NCBI GenBank assembly: GCA_017441705.1
Contig: JAFRWU010000060.1
Coordinates: 1-34,589 of the forward strand
Direction of reading: 5' to 3'
Origin: Clostridia bacterium
Lineage (GTDB): Bacteria; Bacillota; Clostridia; Oscillospirales; QAMX01
DNA: 34,589 bases
Below the pieces are notes generated by a model. It had not been told where the DNA came from and made no database searches. It worked only from the letters and a program-made list of their open reading frames with translations. The position numbers and the translations under genes are program-made. Positions 1,058 to 30,107 of the stretch are shown piece after piece; position 1 is the stretch's first letter, and every line of letters begins with the position of its first letter.

Positions 1058-1848
1058 AGACTCAGCTCCTTTGCCATCTCCCCTACCGAGGGGTAGACGA
1101 AATCTGCGTGAAACTCGTTCTGATTCTCGTAGTCTTCCCGGCTCGTCTCGCCGGTCAGGACCAGGGCGGACGCGATCCCCGCCCTTTCTCCCACCGCGAT
1201 ATCGGTATAGAGCCGGTCGCCCACCATGATCGTTTTCTCCCGTTCCCCGCCGGTCAGGGCGAGGACCGCGTCGATGATCGTCCGGTTGGGCTTTCCGACG
1301 ATCAGGTCGGGGCTCTTCCCCGTGGACGCCTCCAGAAGCCGGATCATCGCGCCTGTGTCGGGAACGTCCCTGCCGCCCTCCACCGGACACACCAGATCCG
1401 GATGCGTACAGATCCAGGGGATCCCGCTCTTGATAAACTCATGCGCCAGGAGAAGCCTGCGGTAGGTCAGGTCCTGATCGAACCCCAGGACCACCGCCTC
1501 GGGATCCTCCTCCGTCAGGAGGAAGCCCTCCCGCGCAAAAAGCGCGCGAAGCGGAGCGGTGCCCATGACGTAAAGGCGGCGGTATCCCTTTTCCCGCAGG
1601 ACGATCGCCGTGGCGTCGCCGGAGGAAAAAACGTCGTCTTCCCCCGCCCGGATCCCCAGCCGGTTCAGCTTTTCGGCGTAAGCCTTTTTGTCCCGGGAGG
1701 AATTGTTCGTGAGGAAAAGATAACGCGCACCGCGATCCCGGATCGCCTTCAGAAAGCCCGGCGTTTCGGGAAAGAGATGATTGCCGAGGTAGATGGTGCC
1801 GTCCATATCCAGGAGGAAAAGAGTGAAATCCCGGAGCGTTTTCATCAT
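1054..1848 (-). CDS. HAD-IIA sugar-phosphate phosphatase (NagD/AraL type)
   Basis: A 264-residue HAD-superfamily phosphatase with a C2 cap. Motif I is DMDGT (residues 14-18, with D14 as nucleophile and D16 as acid/base), motif II is TNNSS (47-51), and GKPN and GDRLYTDI follow at about 185 and 212 as motifs III and IV. This order is that of NagD, AraL and 4-nitrophenyl phosphatase, which remove phosphate from small sugar or glycol phosphates. It overlaps the preceding araM-like gene by 4 bases (ATGA), so the two are translationally coupled. In Bacillus subtilis araL and araM are likewise neighbours in the arabinose operon. A role as a housecleaning phosphatase, or in dephosphorylating glycerol-1-phosphate-type products, is inferred. 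No good ribosome site precedes it, which fits coupling. Confidence 0.85.
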   Translation of the reverse strand: MMKTLRDFTLFLLDMDGTIYLGNHLFPETPGFLKAIRDRGARYLFLTNNSSRDKKAYAEKLNRLGIRAGEDDVFSSGDATAIVLREKGYRRLYVMGTAPLRALFAREGFLLTEEDPEAVVLGFDQDLTYRRLLLAHEFIKSGIPWICTHPDLVCPVEGGRDVPDTGAMIRLLEASTGKSPDLIVGKPNRTIIDAVLALTGGEREKTIMVGDRLYTDIAVGERAGIASALVLTGETSREDYENQNEFHADFVYPSVGEMAKELSL

Positions 1849-3125
1849 TCGGTCACCGAAAAAGGTGCGACGCGGGTGCGCAGGAGCCGCATCAGGGTCA
1901 GCCTGCGCCGCATATAGAAGGCGTATTTGACGCCGGCTTCCGCCATGTCTTCCGGTACGCCGGCTTCTTCCGCCGTCGCGTCTCCTCCCGCTTTCCGGAG
2001 AAGGGAACGGATCTCCTCTCCCGTCGGGATCTCTTCCCGGACGATACGGGCGATCCCGTCCCAGTTCCGGGCGATCGTTTCGTTTTTCACACCCTCCGCG
2101 GGGTCGGGAAGGCTTTCCCGCATGATGCTTTCGTAAAGGGGATCGAACGCCCTTTCGAGAGCCTCCTTCGCGGGAGTATGCGCGAGGAAGACCGGCGGGG
2201 TTTCCACAGCCCGGTGATACACGTCCGATACCAGGGCGGCGGCGACGCCGACCTTCGTCCCGTGATAAAGCGGAGCGAGACCGCGCGCGGCGTAAAGGAT
2301 CTCCCAGAGATGAGAGATGTGATGCTCCGCGCCCGAGGCCGGACGGGAGGAGCCCGCGAGATAGATCATCAGCCCCGAAAGGGTCAGGGCTTCCATCAGA
2401 GCAAGCGCGTATCCCTCGTCACGGGCGGGATCGGCTCCTTCCCGGATCGGCTTCACGGCCTTTTCCACCGCGCCGCGCATCAGCCGTGCGATGGACGGGC
2501 AATAGCTCTCTCCCGTCAGGAGCGACGCGATCTTCCAGTCGGCCAGGGCCGTGTATTTCCCGATCAGATCGCCGAGTCCGGCCGCCTTCAGTTCGGCGGG
2601 AGACGCGGCCAGGATATCCACGTCCGCCAAAAGGACCTCCGGCGCCTTGGCGTCGAGGGTCGTTTTGTAACCCTTCACCGTCAGGGGCGCCTGACCCGAC
2701 AGGAATCCGTCCATACTCGGCGCGGTGGCGAAGATCGCAAAGGGCAGGGAAAGCCGGAACGCGGCGTAGCGGCATACGTCGTTCAGGGAGCCGGTGCCTG
2801 CGGAAAGGATCAGATCGGTCCCCTCCGCCTCTCTCATAACCTCTTCCGAGATCTCCATCTCGGCTTCCCGCAGGTTCTCATAAGTCAGTTCCTTCACCCG
2901 GTATCCGGCGCCGGTGAGCGCCTCCCGGAGCCCGGGCGAGGCTTTTTCCGTGTTCCGGTCCCACACGAGAAGCAGATCCTTCCCTCCGAGTTCTTCCCGG
3001 AGGATCGCGCCGGTATCCGCCGTCAGTCCTTTTTCAAAGGAGACGAACGGCGCCCTGAGCGCGTGCTTTTTTCCGCAGGGGCAGTTTTCAAGGCTTTTGA
3101 TCAAAGCCGGAATGTCCAGGGACAT
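1845..3125 (-). CDS. araM: sn-glycerol-1-phosphate dehydrogenase (AraM/EgsA family)
   Basis: A 426-residue NAD(P)-linked iron-type dehydrogenase that reduces dihydroxyacetone phosphate to sn-glycerol-1-phosphate. The nucleotide loop contains SAGTGSLND (about 108-116), and the metal ligands of the family are visible: D186 in GLGDLIGKY, H268/H269 in GAEHHISH, and H288 in YHGTK. Length fits AraM. In Bacillus the product feeds heptaprenylglyceryl phosphate synthesis; no PcrB-type prenyltransferase is seen here, so the use of G1P is open. The start at 3125 has GGAAGG upstream. It begins 37 bases after the aspS stop with no terminator between, and overlaps the HAD gene by 4 bases. A CPC pair at residues 15-17 is unusual and its role is unknown. 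A GldA-type glycerol dehydrogenase is a less likely alternative. Confidence 0.85.
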   Translation of the reverse strand: MSLDIPALIKSLENCPCGKKHALRAPFVSFEKGLTADTGAILREELGGKDLLLVWDRNTEKASPGLREALTGAGYRVKELTYENLREAEMEISEEVMREAEGTDLILSAGTGSLNDVCRYAAFRLSLPFAIFATAPSMDGFLSGQAPLTVKGYKTTLDAKAPEVLLADVDILAASPAELKAAGLGDLIGKYTALADWKIASLLTGESYCPSIARLMRGAVEKAVKPIREGADPARDEGYALALMEALTLSGLMIYLAGSSRPASGAEHHISHLWEILYAARGLAPLYHGTKVGVAAALVSDVYHRAVETPPVFLAHTPAKEALERAFDPLYESIMRESLPDPAEGVKNETIARNWDGIARIVREEIPTGEEIRSLLRKAGGDATAEEAGVPEDMAEAGVKYAFYMRRRLTLMRLLRTRVAPFSVTE

Positions 3126-3162: not shown

Positions 3163-4506
3163 TTACGGGTTCAGGCGGTTGGGGCCGCGGAAGATGAACA
3201 TCGATTCCTTGATGCCGAGTCCGAACAGCAGCATGGTCAGCCGGTCGAGTCCCAGGCCGAAGCCGCCGTGCGGCGGGCAGCCGTAGCGGAAGAAGTCGAG
3301 ATAGAACTTCACGTCCTCGCCGAGGCCCTTTTCATCCGCCTGCGCCTTGAGCGGTTCGTAACGGTGTTCTCTCTGGGCGCCCGTGGTGATCTCCACACCG
3401 CGCCAGATCAGATCGTAGCCCATGGGGATGCCGTTTTCGTCGCGCATATGATAGAAGGCGCGCTTTTCCGGGCCGAAATCGGTGACGAACAGGAACTCGT
3501 GTCCGTATTTTTCCATGACCCACCGATAGGAAAGCTGCTCCGCCTCGGTGGTCAGGTCGTTCTTCTCGCTTTCAGGCAGGATATAGCCGTAATTCTTCTC
3601 CAGCTCGTCGTAAAGATCGTGAAGCTTCACCACCGGGAAGGGCAGCGTCGGAACGACGACCTTTTTGCCGAAAAGCGCCTCGATCTCCTCCCCGTATTTT
3701 TCGGCGACCTTTCCCAGTGCATAGGTCAGCAATTCCTCCTCCATCTTCATGACGTCCTTCACCGATTCGATGTAGGAGAATTCCAGATCGAACCCGGTGA
3801 ATTCGGTGGTGTGGCGGGAGGTGTAGGATTTTTCGGCGCGGAACACCGGCCCGACCTCGAAGATGCGTTCAAATCCGGCGGCCATGGCCATCTGCTTGTA
3901 GAACTGCGGGCTTTGCGCGAGATACGCATTCCGGTCGAAATACTTCACCTCGAACACGTCTGCGCCGCTTTCGCTGGCCGCGCCGATGAGCTTGGGGGAA
4001 TGGATTTCCAGAAAGTCTCTCGCCAGCAGGAATTCACGCAGCGCGGCTGCCAGAGCCGTCTGCGCCTTGAACACCAGCTGATTTTCGTCGGTGCGCAGAT
4101 CGATCCAGCGGTAATCGATCCTCTGGTCGATGTTGGAGCGTTCCAGAGCGGCTTTCTTCTTGGTTGCGGGGATCTCCTTGCGCACGATGGGAAGCGCTTC
4201 CGCCAGGGAATCGATCCGGATGCTCTCTCCCTCCGCGGGGATCATCTCAAAGCCGTTGAGCTTGACGAATTCGTTCGGGAACACCGTTCCCTCACAGGTG
4301 ATCACCGAATCGGGCGTGATCGCGTCGAGCGTTTCCAGAAGGGCGGGGAATTTCTCCTTTTCCACCGTGATCTGAAGCCTTCCCGAAAGGTCCTTCAAAA
4401 CGATGAAGGCCATGCTTTTCCCGTTGCGGATGTTGTCCACGAAACCCCGCACCAGGATCGGCTCGCCGGTCTTTTTGACCGCTTCTCTGAGGATCGTTCT
4501 TTCCAT
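3163..4506 (-). CDS. aspS: Aspartyl-tRNA synthetase, archaeal type (probably non-discriminating)
   Basis: A 447-residue class II aminoacyl-tRNA synthetase that activates aspartate and loads it on tRNA-Asp, and probably on tRNA-Asn as well. It has an N-terminal OB fold (VRGFVDNIRNGK), QSPQFYKQ, motif 2 (FRAEKSYTSRHTTEF) and motif 3 (GFGLGLDRLTMLLF). It lacks the GAD insertion of the roughly 590-residue bacterial AspRS, so it is the archaeal/eukaryal-type form often annotated aspartate-tRNA(Asn) ligase in Clostridia. Such forms usually work with the GatCAB amidotransferase, which is not in this window. Start: the ATG at 4506 is 8 bases after AGGAG, while the in-frame ATG at 4512 is only 2 bases away. 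The open frame further upstream is the T-box leader read as protein. Expression is predicted to depend on uncharged tRNA. Confidence 0.92.
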   Translation of the reverse strand: MERTILREAVKKTGEPILVRGFVDNIRNGKSMAFIVLKDLSGRLQITVEKEKFPALLETLDAITPDSVITCEGTVFPNEFVKLNGFEMIPAEGESIRIDSLAEALPIVRKEIPATKKKAALERSNIDQRIDYRWIDLRTDENQLVFKAQTALAAALREFLLARDFLEIHSPKLIGAASESGADVFEVKYFDRNAYLAQSPQFYKQMAMAAGFERIFEVGPVFRAEKSYTSRHTTEFTGFDLEFSYIESVKDVMKMEEELLTYALGKVAEKYGEEIEALFGKKVVVPTLPFPVVKLHDLYDELEKNYGYILPESEKNDLTTEAEQLSYRWVMEKYGHEFLFVTDFGPEKRAFYHMRDENGIPMGYDLIWRGVEITTGAQREHRYEPLKAQADEKGLGEDVKFYLDFFRYGCPPHGGFGLGLDRLTMLLFGLGIKESMFIFRGPNRLNP

Positions 4507-4512
4507 TTTCAT

Positions 4513-4690
4513 AACTCCTTTCGGCCTTCCGGGCCCGTTTCCAAAAAAGAAAGCTTCCGCCCCGTTTTGGGGCGAAAGCTCTGCTTCCGCGGTACCACCC
4601 AAATTCAGCTTCCTTCCGAAGCCCTCTGAAGGTCGGTATAGAACTGTCTTTGCGCTCCGCCGGCCTGTCACCCACGGCGTCATCACGCAG
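4513..4690 (-). promoter_or_regulatory. T-box riboswitch leader of aspS, very short Stem I
   Basis: The conserved T-box GGGTGGTACCGCG lies at 4600-4588. The antiterminator forms from TTTGGG pairing with CCCAAA and GCGGAAGC pairing with GCTTTCGC, leaving the expected 7-base bulge TGGTACC that binds the tRNA acceptor end. A Stem III-like hairpin (TTCA..GCTTC / GAAGC..TGAA) lies at about 4630-4604. The only hairpin before it is TGCGT-GAT-GA-CGCCG (4689-4675) with CGGCG-GA-GCGCA (4662-4651). This is a 5-bp stem, a 3-base bulge, tandem G.A/A.G pairs and a 5-bp stem, which is the kink-turn pattern. Its 12-base terminal loop contains GAC (4669-4667) followed by A, the likely Asp specifier. Neither Stem II nor the IIA/B pseudoknot is seen. 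The T-box itself is near certain; the compact Stem I fold is my inference. Confidence 0.9.
4541..4580 (-). terminator. T-box leader intrinsic terminator
   Basis: On the minus strand AGCTTTCGCCCC (4580-4569) pairs with GGGGCGGAAGCT (4563-4552), with one G-T wobble, followed by TTCTTTTTT. The left arm is also the 3' arm of the antiterminator, so the two folds exclude each other. It should stop transcription before aspS when tRNA is charged. Confidence 0.93.
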
Positions 4691-4694
4691 CCTC

Positions 4695-4723
4695 ATTATA
4701 ACCGAAAGGGACTTCGTTGTCAA
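4695..4723 (-). promoter_or_regulatory. Consensus sigma-A promoter of the aspS unit
   Basis: On the minus strand TTGACA (4723-4718), a 17-base spacer and TATAAT (4700-4695): a perfect match to the vegetative consensus. Transcription should start near 4688, right at the foot of the kink-turn hairpin, which fixes how short the T-box leader is. Confidence 0.92.
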
Positions 4724-4739
4724 GGGAAAATCCCGGGCG

Positions 4740-6563
4740 TTACGATTTTCCCCCGTAAAGCTTTTCATAGGTCACGCCGTTTTTCTTCGCCTCGCCGCGC
4801 CAGAGAGACGACCTGGCGGGAGAGACGGGCGACGAGACCTCGAGGACCGTCCCGCCGCATATCGCGCACGCCAGGACGTTGTCCCCCTCGAACGTGAGCG
4901 ACGTCGCCTCCGGCTCAGTCCCGTCCAGGCTGACGAAAAGCGCCGCGTACGCGTTTGAAAGCGACGTCAGATTGATTTCCTTCTCCGGTCCTTCGTAAAA
5001 AACGACGTCGAGATAACGCCTTTCCTCCGCGCCGGTGAACCGGCGGTGAAGGTCCGGTTTCCCGTCGAGGATCGCCTTTTCCTCCCGGCTTTCGCGCTTT
5101 TCCAGTCTGCACGGCGCCCCGTCGAATTCCGCGCCGATGAGCCGGACCCCGATCCTCCGTCCTCCGTCCGCGAGGGACGCCGCGTCGTCCTCGATCATCC
5201 AGTCGCCTTCCAGCGCTCCGCCCGCCTCCAGGCGGATCCGGAGATCGTAAGCGTTGATCCTGCCGTTTTTTATCATGTCCAGATTGATGTGCGTATCTCC
5301 AGAGTCGCTCCGGAGCGACGCCAGGATCAGGGCGTGTCCGCCGTCCTGGGCGATCGTGAACATGCCGGATGAAAAATCGTAAAGATTGTGAAGCGCCGCG
5401 AGATTCAGGAAACGGGGCCTCTCCCCGCCCCAGAAGGCCAGGAATCCTCTCCTCTGATTCCAGGCGGAGACGGCCGCGAAGGAGCCGAGCGCGAAATCCT
5501 TCTCTTTATGGAAGACCGCGACGGCGGCCGGGGACGTGCGGAGATCCGCCTCGGTGCGGAAGACGACGTTGACGTCCTTTTCTTCCGGCTCGCAAAACGC
5601 CTTGCGGTATTTGTCGGGACAGCAAAGATCCACGTACGCCCAGCCGAGGCTGTAGGAAAAGGGCGGAAGGGACTTATCCCCGTTGAAATCGGTCAGGGAT
5701 ATCCCGTGCCCGGTCGCCTGTTCCAGGAAGGAAAGCGTGCCCGGAGCCGTGAGCCAGGTGTAGCTTCGCGCGTTGGGGCCGCACCACTGGCGGGTCGGCG
5801 CGTGAAAATGATCGGCAATCGTCCGCCAGGCGTCGTCCAGCATCTCTCCGGCCATCGCGTGCACTTCCCCGTCCCGGATATGCGTATGGATCCGCGTAAG
5901 ATCCTCGATCGCCACCGACGTATAGGTGGCGCTGTTGTATTCCGCGAACGCGCCGTGATTGCCGCGGGTATACCGGACGAACCCCCTGAAGCGCTCCTTT
6001 CCGTAGGAGAAAAGCCACGGCCATCCGAGAAGCTGCCCCGCGTGCAGCGTGACGTAAGAGCCCATGATCGAGATATTGGTATAAGCCGCGTGCATGTTGC
6101 GCCGGAAGATCGAAAGACAGGCGTGCCGCAGCGCGTCCTCCAGTTCGGCGCGGAGATCCTTCGAGATCCGGTCTCCGTGGAACGCCAGGACCTGCAGGAT
6201 CTCCTTTCCGCAGAAATCCGCCCAGTTCCAGTCCGGCGGGCTCATTTTCTCCAGCGGCTCCTCCATATACCAGCTCCAGATCCCGTAGGTCGCGTTCGCC
6301 GGGTTTTTGTCCTGTTGAGCGGATACGTTCCAAAGGATCTCCTCCGCACGGGAAAGATCCTCTTCCCTCCCGGAAGCGAGGAGCGCCGCGGCGTATCCGA
6401 AGGCGTCGCGGGTGGAGTGTACGGTCTGACGCGCAAGATTGGTGTGATAATTGGCCTTGTCCAGATACCCCGCCGGCGCCTTCCATTCCTCGTCATAGAC
6501 GGCGTTCGCCTTTGCCAGCGCCCTTTCGAAGGGCTTCCTGTCTGTTTCCCGCAGTGTGAACAT
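4740..6563 (-). CDS. Predicted (alpha/alpha)6-toroid carbohydrate-active enzyme, family unassigned
   Basis: A 607-residue protein. Residues 1 to about 330 are helical, with aromatic and acidic motifs of a glycan-binding toroid: WSWYMEEP, DWNWADFCGKE, NISIMGSY and FAEYNSATYTSVA, and Trp/Tyr-rich stretches after. The C-terminal half is beta-rich, as in heparinase II/III-type or alginate-lyase-type enzymes. FAEYNS recalls E-x-N-S motifs in uncharacterised members of that fold. I cannot assign a numbered GH or PL family. No signal peptide is visible, so it probably acts on imported oligosaccharides. The start at 6563 follows GGAGGAAGGAAA. It has its own promoter and ends 17 bases before the aspS -35 box. 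Neighbouring GH28-like and GH106-like genes suggest a pectin- or rhamnose-containing substrate (inference). Confidence 0.6.
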   Translation of the reverse strand: MFTLRETDRKPFERALAKANAVYDEEWKAPAGYLDKANYHTNLARQTVHSTRDAFGYAAALLASGREEDLSRAEEILWNVSAQQDKNPANATYGIWSWYMEEPLEKMSPPDWNWADFCGKEILQVLAFHGDRISKDLRAELEDALRHACLSIFRRNMHAAYTNISIMGSYVTLHAGQLLGWPWLFSYGKERFRGFVRYTRGNHGAFAEYNSATYTSVAIEDLTRIHTHIRDGEVHAMAGEMLDDAWRTIADHFHAPTRQWCGPNARSYTWLTAPGTLSFLEQATGHGISLTDFNGDKSLPPFSYSLGWAYVDLCCPDKYRKAFCEPEEKDVNVVFRTEADLRTSPAAVAVFHKEKDFALGSFAAVSAWNQRRGFLAFWGGERPRFLNLAALHNLYDFSSGMFTIAQDGGHALILASLRSDSGDTHINLDMIKNGRINAYDLRIRLEAGGALEGDWMIEDDAASLADGGRRIGVRLIGAEFDGAPCRLEKRESREEKAILDGKPDLHRRFTGAEERRYLDVVFYEGPEKEINLTSLSNAYAALFVSLDGTEPEATSLTFEGDNVLACAICGGTVLEVSSPVSPARSSLWRGEAKKNGVTYEKLYGGKS

Positions 6564-27242: not shown

Positions 27243-30107
27243 TCAGAGCTTCACGCGATAGAATTTGTCGCGGCAGGCGGCGTAAAGAACGTCTCCGACC
27301 ACCGCAAGCGCCGCGGGACGCACCGGCAGATCGATCCTTCTCTCCACGTTTCCTTCCAGATCGGTCACGTAGACCTGTCCGTCGGCGATATAGAGCTTGT
27401 CGGTCACGGCAAGACCCTGCTCGCCCCGCTCGGCTGCGAGCGTCGGCTCCTTGAGGAGACCGGAGGCGGTGACCTTGAATCTGTACGTTCTGCGGTAATA
27501 TTCGTCCAGGCAGTAGAAATCCTTGCCCGGGATCGCCATGGCGAGGCTGTTGGCGCGGATCAGATCCCAGGTGTCCGGGATCAGGGTGACGCCGTCCGGT
27601 GCGATAAACGCTTCCTCGTTCGCCTTGACCGTGATCTCGAGGAAGTCATTGGTGTTCCTCCAGCGGTTCACCGGATACCAGAGACGTTCCGGCTTCCGGC
27701 CGCGCATCTTCACGGTTTTCAGTTCTTCCATGGTCTCGTAGGGATGCTCCGGATCCACGACGCAGACCCTGATATCGTTGCCGAGCATGCCGTACCACAT
27801 GCCGTAGTCCACCCGGCGGGAATCCTCCGGCACCATGTATCTTTCCGGTTTGCCGTCGATCATCATGCCGCGCTGCGGGAAGTATTCGATCACGATCAGG
27901 AGGCGGTCTTCGGTATCCACCGCCAGCGACAGCGGCTTGAAGGGCATATCCAGGATCAGCTGCAGCTTCTCCTCCGCCGCGTTCCAACGGTAGATCCGCT
28001 TCCGGTTGTCGTCGGCGAAGTAGACGCTGCCCTTCGAGTCGGCCACGATGCCGTCGGCGAATTCAAAGCCGGTGCCGATCTCGCGCACCGCGGGCTCTCT
28101 CTTTCTCGTGAAGGGCTTTCTGCCTTCCACGACCAGCTTGCCGATCTCCCACGGACGCACTTCCACGCCTGTGGTGTTGTCATACAGGGAATTGTCGATG
28201 GTCAGCTTCACCTGCGTGAAGTTGTGGTAGCCCCAGAAGACGATGTTCTTCGAATCCCAGACCAGGGTCGCGTACTTCCACGGGGTGGTATGCCAGATCA
28301 CACGGAAGGCGTAGAAGTTCATGAACTCCATGTTCTCGCATTCGACGATCTCCAGCGGCTGACACTTGGGAGATTCGAGGGTCTCCTCCTCGAGCTGGAG
28401 GGCGTAGACCTTCCAGTTTTTGACCCGGCGGAATTTCACTTCGCTTCTCACGTGGTGCTCCACCGAAATCTCGAACATCTCGCCCGGGACGTCGGTTTCG
28501 TCCACCAGGATGCCGGCGGAGGCGTAGGGAGACGCGCTCCACACGTCGTAGAACACGCCGCCGCCCCCTTTGACCCAGAGCGAAGGATACATGCTGTCCC
28601 ACTTGCGGCTCTCGTCCAGGTCGGCGGTATGGGAGGCGTTATACGCGCCTTCGCGTTCGCCGTTCGGCCCGATGGAGCCGTGACCGCCGACGAATTTCAC
28701 GTCGATCAGGGCGGAATCCGCGCCGGACTGCCACTTCACGCCCACGGCGCGGTTGTTCTTGCCGCCGGCGTTGATGCCGATGCCGGAGAGGACGTTTTCG
28801 CCGCCGAGGGGAGTTTCCACCATCGGCACGGGCTTCCCGAGGAAGGAGAAGGTCGGCGTATTGTCCAGGACCTGCAGCTGGGTCATGATGGGATGCAGAC
28901 CGATCAGTTTGTTTTTGGCGTTCAGTTTCAGGGTCCCGGTGAGGATGTACCGGCCCATGGGCAGGTAAACGACCTCGTTCTCATCCAGCGCCTTCTGCAG
29001 GAGCGCCGTCACGTCAGTCTTGCCGTCGCCGCGGATGCCGAGAAGCGCCGCGTTCGCCCAGGTATCCACCGCGGGGATCGCCGGAAGGCGGGTGGCTTTT
29101 CTGAGACCGGCGCGGGACATGGGCTTCGTCTTGTGCTCGGTGACCGTTTCCGGCTCCGCGCTTTCGTTTTTCATCAGGCTGCCGTGGAAGAAGGTGACGA
29201 TCTTGTAGCTCGCCTCGTCCGCGCGGACCTCTTCGCTTCCCTTTTTGGAGCGGGCGGTCCTCGCCACGCGATCCATCACGCAGTTGCGGAGCGTGAAATG
29301 CGCATAGCAGGAGCCCTCCTCGTCCATCAGGACCGCCGCGTCGGCGATATCCCGGAAGAGCGATTCCTCGCCGTACATCTTTTCGGTGAATCCGTCCCAC
29401 GTCTCGACGGCTACAGGCATCCGCTCGAAGGAGCAGTTGACGAAGGTCAGACCGGCCTCGCGCGTCATGATGCCGGATTTCTTCTGGTCCTCAAAGAGGC
29501 AATCCAGCATGGTAAACTGCCATGCGGGCGAAGATTTCGTGGTGTAGATGCCGTACTGACCGCCGCGGAAGGCTACGTGATCCATGGCGTTGCCGGTATC
29601 GAAGATGCCAGCCTTCGCGTCGTTGATCGCGATATCCACAAAGGAGATAAAGGAGTGCTGCGCGTAATGAGCGCGCATGGCAACCGCCTTTTTGTTTCCC
29701 TTGCCCATGTCGATATCCAGATTCATGAAGGCCGAATAGAAGGTCCCGGCGTTGGCGTCGAAGATCGGCCAGCCAGGCTCCGGTTTGCGTCCCACAAACC
29801 AGAAAAGATAGGCTGCTTCGCCCTTGTCTCCCTTCGCGGGCGTTTTCAGAGCGGGGGCGCTGTCGATCAGCCGGAAGAGCGGCCGCGTCTTGCCCCAGCC
29901 GATCAGACGGATCCCGGTGGGGATGTAGATCGTCCGGGAGAGCGTGTAGACACCCGGCGCCACGAAAACGACGCCTTCGCCCAGTCTTTCCGCCACCAGA
30001 TCGATGGCCGACTGCAGCGCGATCGAATCGTCTCCGCCGGTGGGCGCCAGATAAACGGCCCGCGGATCATGGATCCGGCTTTGGTACACCGATTGCTTCT
30101 GATACAT
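27243..30107 (-). CDS. Pectate-lyase-3/GH55-like double beta-helix protein with C-terminal propeller
   Basis: A 954-residue protein in three parts. Residues about 16-330 are a first right-handed beta-helix that begins with the pectate-lyase-3 pattern (DDSIALQSAIDLV, then VVFVAPGVYTLSRTI). Residues about 345-640 are a second helix with the same opening (GIRGDGKTDVTALLQKAL, then VVYLPMGRYIL). Residues about 665-950 look like an NHL/SMP-30-type beta-propeller (FADGIVADSKGSVYFADD, LAVTDKLYIADGQVYVTD). Two helices side by side recall GH55 glucanases and phage tailspike-like proteins. No signal peptide. The start at 30107 follows AAAGGAG by 8 bases. It begins 13 bases after the Nudix stop. Catalytic residues cannot be named. 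Confidence 0.65.
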   Translation of the reverse strand: MYQKQSVYQSRIHDPRAVYLAPTGGDDSIALQSAIDLVAERLGEGVVFVAPGVYTLSRTIYIPTGIRLIGWGKTRPLFRLIDSAPALKTPAKGDKGEAAYLFWFVGRKPEPGWPIFDANAGTFYSAFMNLDIDMGKGNKKAVAMRAHYAQHSFISFVDIAINDAKAGIFDTGNAMDHVAFRGGQYGIYTTKSSPAWQFTMLDCLFEDQKKSGIMTREAGLTFVNCSFERMPVAVETWDGFTEKMYGEESLFRDIADAAVLMDEEGSCYAHFTLRNCVMDRVARTARSKKGSEEVRADEASYKIVTFFHGSLMKNESAEPETVTEHKTKPMSRAGLRKATRLPAIPAVDTWANAALLGIRGDGKTDVTALLQKALDENEVVYLPMGRYILTGTLKLNAKNKLIGLHPIMTQLQVLDNTPTFSFLGKPVPMVETPLGGENVLSGIGINAGGKNNRAVGVKWQSGADSALIDVKFVGGHGSIGPNGEREGAYNASHTADLDESRKWDSMYPSLWVKGGGGVFYDVWSASPYASAGILVDETDVPGEMFEISVEHHVRSEVKFRRVKNWKVYALQLEEETLESPKCQPLEIVECENMEFMNFYAFRVIWHTTPWKYATLVWDSKNIVFWGYHNFTQVKLTIDNSLYDNTTGVEVRPWEIGKLVVEGRKPFTRKREPAVREIGTGFEFADGIVADSKGSVYFADDNRKRIYRWNAAEEKLQLILDMPFKPLSLAVDTEDRLLIVIEYFPQRGMMIDGKPERYMVPEDSRRVDYGMWYGMLGNDIRVCVVDPEHPYETMEELKTVKMRGRKPERLWYPVNRWRNTNDFLEITVKANEEAFIAPDGVTLIPDTWDLIRANSLAMAIPGKDFYCLDEYYRRTYRFKVTASGLLKEPTLAAERGEQGLAVTDKLYIADGQVYVTDLEGNVERRIDLPVRPAALAVVGDVLYAACRDKFYRVKL

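Follow-up and report, generated by a model that had tools for sequence, protein, structure and literature searches.

The leader of aspS in a gut Clostridia bacterium (contig JAFRWU010000060.1, whose whole analysed stretch of 34,589 nucleotides is here called the window) is likely to be a T-box riboswitch that terminates transcription and is predicted from sequence to sense tRNA-Asp with a decoding domain reduced to a minimum. A consensus promoter is followed by a short kink-turned hairpin with the specifier GAC in its loop, by an unfolded linker and Stem III, and by an antiterminator that overlaps an intrinsic terminator. This minimal form is conserved in related genomes, where its stem covaries.

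Architecture of the aspS leader

The initial annotation had read from the sequence a perfect-consensus promoter, one hairpin with a kink-turn pattern and GAC in its loop, and then a linker, a Stem III and a full antiterminator/terminator switch, with neither Stem II, the IIA/B pseudoknot nor a distal Stem I. All of these elements were found where it had placed them on the minus strand, and the arms described as missing were indeed absent. The features of the locus are:

4695..4723, minus strand: sigma-70-type promoter TTGACA-17-TATAAT, transcription start expected near 4688; equivalents in the congeneric genomes G002, G001 and G003
4651..4689, minus strand: mini Stem I, with C-stem UGCGU/GCGCA, kink-turn GAU-GA/GA and upper stem CGCCG/CGGCG
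4665..4671, minus strand: apical loop segment GUGACAG, containing the specifier GAC (4669-4667) plus A4666
4624..4650, minus strand: 27-nt linker with no fold, where Stem II and IIA/B would otherwise lie
4607..4623, minus strand: Stem III, GGCUUC/GAAGCU
4568..4601, minus strand: antiterminator with the T-box bulge UGGUACC (4597-4591)
4543..4582, minus strand: intrinsic terminator of 14 pairs plus a T-run, which shares sequence with the 3' half of the antiterminator
3163..4506, minus strand: aspS, archaeal/eukaryote-type aspartyl-tRNA synthetase

The promoter at 4723-4695 matches the consensus at 12 of 12 bases, while promoter-like sites in shuffles of 4400-5000 amounted to 0.1. Within about 7 nt of it on the minus strand starts the hairpin 4689-4651, which reads UGCGU-GAU-GA-CGCCG-UGGGUGACAGGC-CGGCG-GA-GCGCA. 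The upstream open reading frame ends with a stop at 4740, about 16 bp ahead of the -35 box, so that a longer Stem I would hardly fit into the non-coding space. The linker segment formed no structure when folded alone in any of the five sequences tested, and the 14-pair terminator stem at 4582-4550 is followed by CTTTTTT. From the -10 box to GGTGG the leader measures 95 nt, whereas six further T-boxes of this genome span 214-247 nt from a promoter-like -10 box to the T-box. These long T-boxes (L001-L006) lie before genes that were assigned by eye from translations as sodium/solute symporter-like, valS, trpB, sugar epimerase-like, thrS and pheS, and the specifier-purine-stem-GAG layout of the aspS leader is the same as in the canonical T-boxes of this genome. 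Another perfect match to the T-box motif in the genome, L109, is coding sequence and was ruled out.

RF00230 was the best Rfam family for the leader; its score of 30.5 bits (E 3.5e-5) is far below the gathering cut-off of 93, which is a detection threshold for full-length forms and not a defining trait; at that threshold the window gave no Rfam match. Similar leaders may be unannotated elsewhere, because the standard cut-off misses them. The T-box, Stem III and antiterminator were aligned both by RF00230 and by a covariance model, R1, built from four leaders of the genus. The RF00230 alignment begins at 4768, so that its Stem I half falls upstream of and over the promoter with a large deletion, and a normal Stem I is therefore not found by the model.

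Folding of 4535-4690 gave a minimum-free-energy z-score of -4.0 against shuffles. Dinucleotide shuffling of the window leader produced an equally strong GA/GA kink-turn hairpin with GAC in its loop in 3 of 5,000 cases, and the same test gave 2 for G001 and 0 for G184, a genome of another family; such a hairpin with a UGACA loop never arose in the shuffles. For the window sequence folded on its own, ViennaRNA, which is unable to model kink-turns, favoured a shifted pairing of the upper stem together with a rival 5' hairpin (GCGU/ACGC), and this shifted stem is incompatible with G001. A helix between linker and T-box that would mask the bulge (ACCGACC with GGGUGGU) is present in the window genome and partly in G002, and was dropped because it is missing in G001 and G003.

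Homologous leaders and competing explanations

The element was found in four of the five genomes of the genus, namely the window genome (G000), G001 (L028), G002 (L009) and G003 (L022), and a match of this kind was absent from the fifth, G004, which is about 77% complete. The three other leaders start at their own promoters, with TTGACA-17-TATAAT/TATATT directly before a single hairpin, and the upstream arm sought in them was not present. The window and G002 resemble each other from TTGACA onwards, with no clear similarity upstream. R1 scored 118-141 bits in the four genus leaders, and nothing else in 394 genomes of the order exceeded 46 bits; the weaker matches (26 loci read) were antiterminators of long T-boxes or chance, with the exception of one in G184.

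The element in G184 is an independent mini T-box (G184:C32:27377-27487, minus strand; L155 1501-1611, minus strand) with the sequence UUGUCU-GUU-GA-G-GUGG-CUGACAA-CCGC-G-GA-GGACAA. The stop codon of mgsA lies within a few nucleotides upstream, and the order that follows is mini hairpin, T-box, 18-bp terminator, hisS and aspS, with GAC again as the specifier. Among 30 loci from relatives of G184, a T-box was detected before hisS only in G050, where it is a long one with GAC, and within the family the mini form was seen in G184 only; the short form therefore arose twice or moved. The loop CUGACAA of G184 is laid out like a tRNA anticodon loop, with U before and A after GAC, as if the riboswitch mimicked an anticodon arm.

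Covariation was evaluated on the four genus leaders plus G184 aligned to the model, and both partners vary in 10 of the 27 pairs against a shuffle mean of 4.0; the mini Stem I accounts for two of these in its C-stem and two in its upper stem. Pairing cells made up 95.5% in these five sequences and about 50% when the partner was slid by one base. The upper stem occurs as GCCG/CGGC, GCCA/UGGC and GUGG/CCGC with GAC-A and the kink-turn constant, and the genus loop GUGACA is unchanged around it. The lower C-stem is weak in G001 and G003 (2 pairs plus a mismatch). Because the genus sequences are close relatives, the covariation stems from few independent events, and with an alignment fitted to the structure its support is moderate, not overwhelming.

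Pattern scans for a kink-turn hairpin at most 60 nt from a T-box, with the retrieved loci then inspected for the hairpin, covered about 1,150 distinct Bacillota genomes and confirmed the form only in the genus and the G184 lineage. The rarity is approximate, because phylum-level matches lacking a locus were left out and the pattern demands ACCGC and GGAG. Hairpin-like matches in L163, L165, L197, L217 and L255 sit inside long leaders and were rejected, 30 pattern matches in viral contigs included none in a credible T-box context, and the 79 loci of AspS relatives outside the genus gave no convincing T-box up to 420 nt upstream.

This rare and patchy occurrence, confirmed for one genus plus a single genome from a different family, together with the G184 relatives in which hisS has no detected T-box or, in G050, a long one, would fit a decaying T-box that has lost its upper Stem I and Stem II and acts as a constitutive attenuator or as a weak, non-specific sensor of tRNA 3' ends. 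Such decay is nevertheless considered unlikely, as GUGACA, the kink-turn, Stem III, the bulge and the terminator are kept across species while the stem covaries, and two lineages share the same layout with a fitting specifier. Another possibility is that the hairpin is not the whole sensor, and that the tRNA is held only with the help of a kink-turn binder, for example one like L7Ae/YbxF, or of a further GACA that lies in the linker (4644-4648, minus strand). All four genus leaders keep this linker GACA unchanged, the weak C-stem of two of them agrees with such a need, and kink-turn proteins have been suggested as T-box helpers (PMC7583486); the absence of this GACA from G184 argues the other way, and the proposal is judged very improbable. 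That the true Stem I is longer and comes from a promoter within the preceding gene, as the beginning of the RF00230 alignment might suggest, can hardly be credited with a perfect promoter intervening, no clear similarity upstream of TTGACA in G002 and the G184 element starting right behind the mgsA stop.

Predicted pairing with tRNA-Asp and a proposed mechanism

In G000, G001, G002 and G003 the tRNA-Asp has the anticodon GUC, the anticodon loop CUGUCAC and the end G73CCA, and the specifier GAC suits the downstream aspS. The window loop GUGACAG is the full 7-nt reverse complement of its own tRNA-Asp anticodon loop. GUGACA in G001 and G003 is complementary over 6 nt, and UGACA in G184 over 5 nt provided that its tRNA-Asp loop, which was not found in the 60%-complete genome, is alike. 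Nearest-neighbour duplex energies for the loops alone, ignoring loop geometry and tRNA modifications, were -9.0, -6.7 and -5.4 kcal/mol for 7, 6 and 5 nt, and -2.2 kcal/mol for GAC alone. The base before the specifier is U in all mini loops and in none of five canonical T-boxes (A in valS, thrS and trpB and C in pheS of this genome, G in hisS of G050), and such a U would allow a further pair with tRNA position 37. Extended loop-loop pairing may replace the missing contacts, which we infer rather than conclude because the canonical sample is small. The geometry so proposed, with 7-nt loops paired over their full length, is that of the kissing loops of ColE1 RNA I/RNA II; those loops serve antisense control of plasmid replication, and the likeness is one of geometry alone. 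At the other end of the tRNA, the bulge UGGC of G001, G003 and G184 fits G73 exactly, and UGGU of the window and G002 needs a G-U pair.

A mechanism is proposed in which the anticodon loop of uncharged tRNA-Asp would pair with the apical GUGACA of the single kink-turned hairpin, while its free 3' end, GCCA, would pair with the UGGU/UGGC bulge. The docked 3' end would stabilise the antiterminator, enabling RNA polymerase to read into aspS. With charged tRNA-Asp the 3' end would be unable to dock and the strong terminator would form. Three to four loop pairs beyond the specifier would compensate for the lack of Stem II and of contact with the elbow. Transcription attenuation is the most likely mode of action of the leader.

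T-box classes and the aspS locus

At least four T-box classes were distinguished in a 2023 paper, in which class I has a long Stem I and Stem II, the glycine class II a long Stem I without Stem II, class III a short Stem I that requires Stem II, and class IV an intermediate form (PMC10482949). The bulge UGGNACC in an antiterminator, Stem III upstream, a fitting specifier and a mutually exclusive terminator are all present in the aspS leader, and its sequence features support placing it in the broadly defined T-box family but in none of classes I-IV. With class I, including hisS-type GAC leaders (L282 in G050), it shares the bulge, Stem III, the antiterminator/terminator and the specifier-purine-stem-GAG layout, but it lacks some 120-150 nt belonging to Stem I, Stem II and IIA/B, among them the long Stem I with its distal double T-loop. 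Class II (glyQS) likewise has no Stem II, a flexible linker and control of transcription termination, but is glycine-specific and grips the tRNA elbow by the double T-loop of a long Stem I, whereas the specifier here is GAC on a mini Stem I. Class III, known from ileS of Nocardia and Mycobacterium (PMC10482949), is alike in its short kink-turned Stem I, its specifier in the apical loop and the lack of an elbow-binding distal motif; it differs in requiring Stem II, in acting mostly on translation initiation and in a loop of 5-6 nt, against a terminator, no Stem II and a loop of 7-12 nt here. Class IV combines an intermediate Stem I and a side-bulge specifier with Stem II, unlike the apical specifier without Stem II found in this leader.

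The earlier judgement that a leader lacking both arms would be unusual is borne out, for classes I-IV all keep a long Stem I, Stem II or both, and the aspS leader is therefore a fifth layout; the literature searched held no description of a T-box without both a long Stem I and Stem II. In the prevailing view, transcriptional T-boxes capture their tRNA quickly only with a long Stem I that grips the elbow, and short T-boxes depend on Stem II. Published work in which a long Stem I is described as generally necessary for transcriptional T-boxes (PMC7583486) counts against a tRNA-sensing reading here. A further suggestion, made tentatively and with doubt prevailing, is that the layout is a fifth architecture in which one hairpin captures the tRNA by pairing with nearly the whole anticodon loop, rather than by 3 pairs backed by Stem II and by contact with the elbow, and that this suffices for transcription control; the contiguous pairs would number 6-7 in the genus and, given an identical tRNA-Asp loop, 5 in G184. 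If so, an 88-nt sensing leader with neither arm would be the smallest natural tRNA-sensing module. The required contacts would be directly testable in it, and structural studies and RNA engineering would gain a compact part.

The aspS gene probably starts with the ATG at 4506 and encodes a short AspRS of the archaeal/eukaryote type, whose best PDB relatives are the archaeal AspRS 3nel and 1b8a. The protein scores 413 bits against NCBIfam NF003483 (cut-off 353), and it may be non-discriminating because that model is called aspartate--tRNA(Asn) ligase; despite this name, the leader codon is GAC (Asp), not AAC. Directly downstream at 1845-3125 (minus strand) lies an Fe-ADH_2 family gene for an iron-containing alcohol dehydrogenase / sn-glycerol-1-phosphate dehydrogenase-like protein, which may belong to the T-box-controlled transcript of aspS. 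Elsewhere in the window, 27243-30107 (minus strand) encodes a pectate-lyase-like (rhamnogalacturonase/epimerase) protein.
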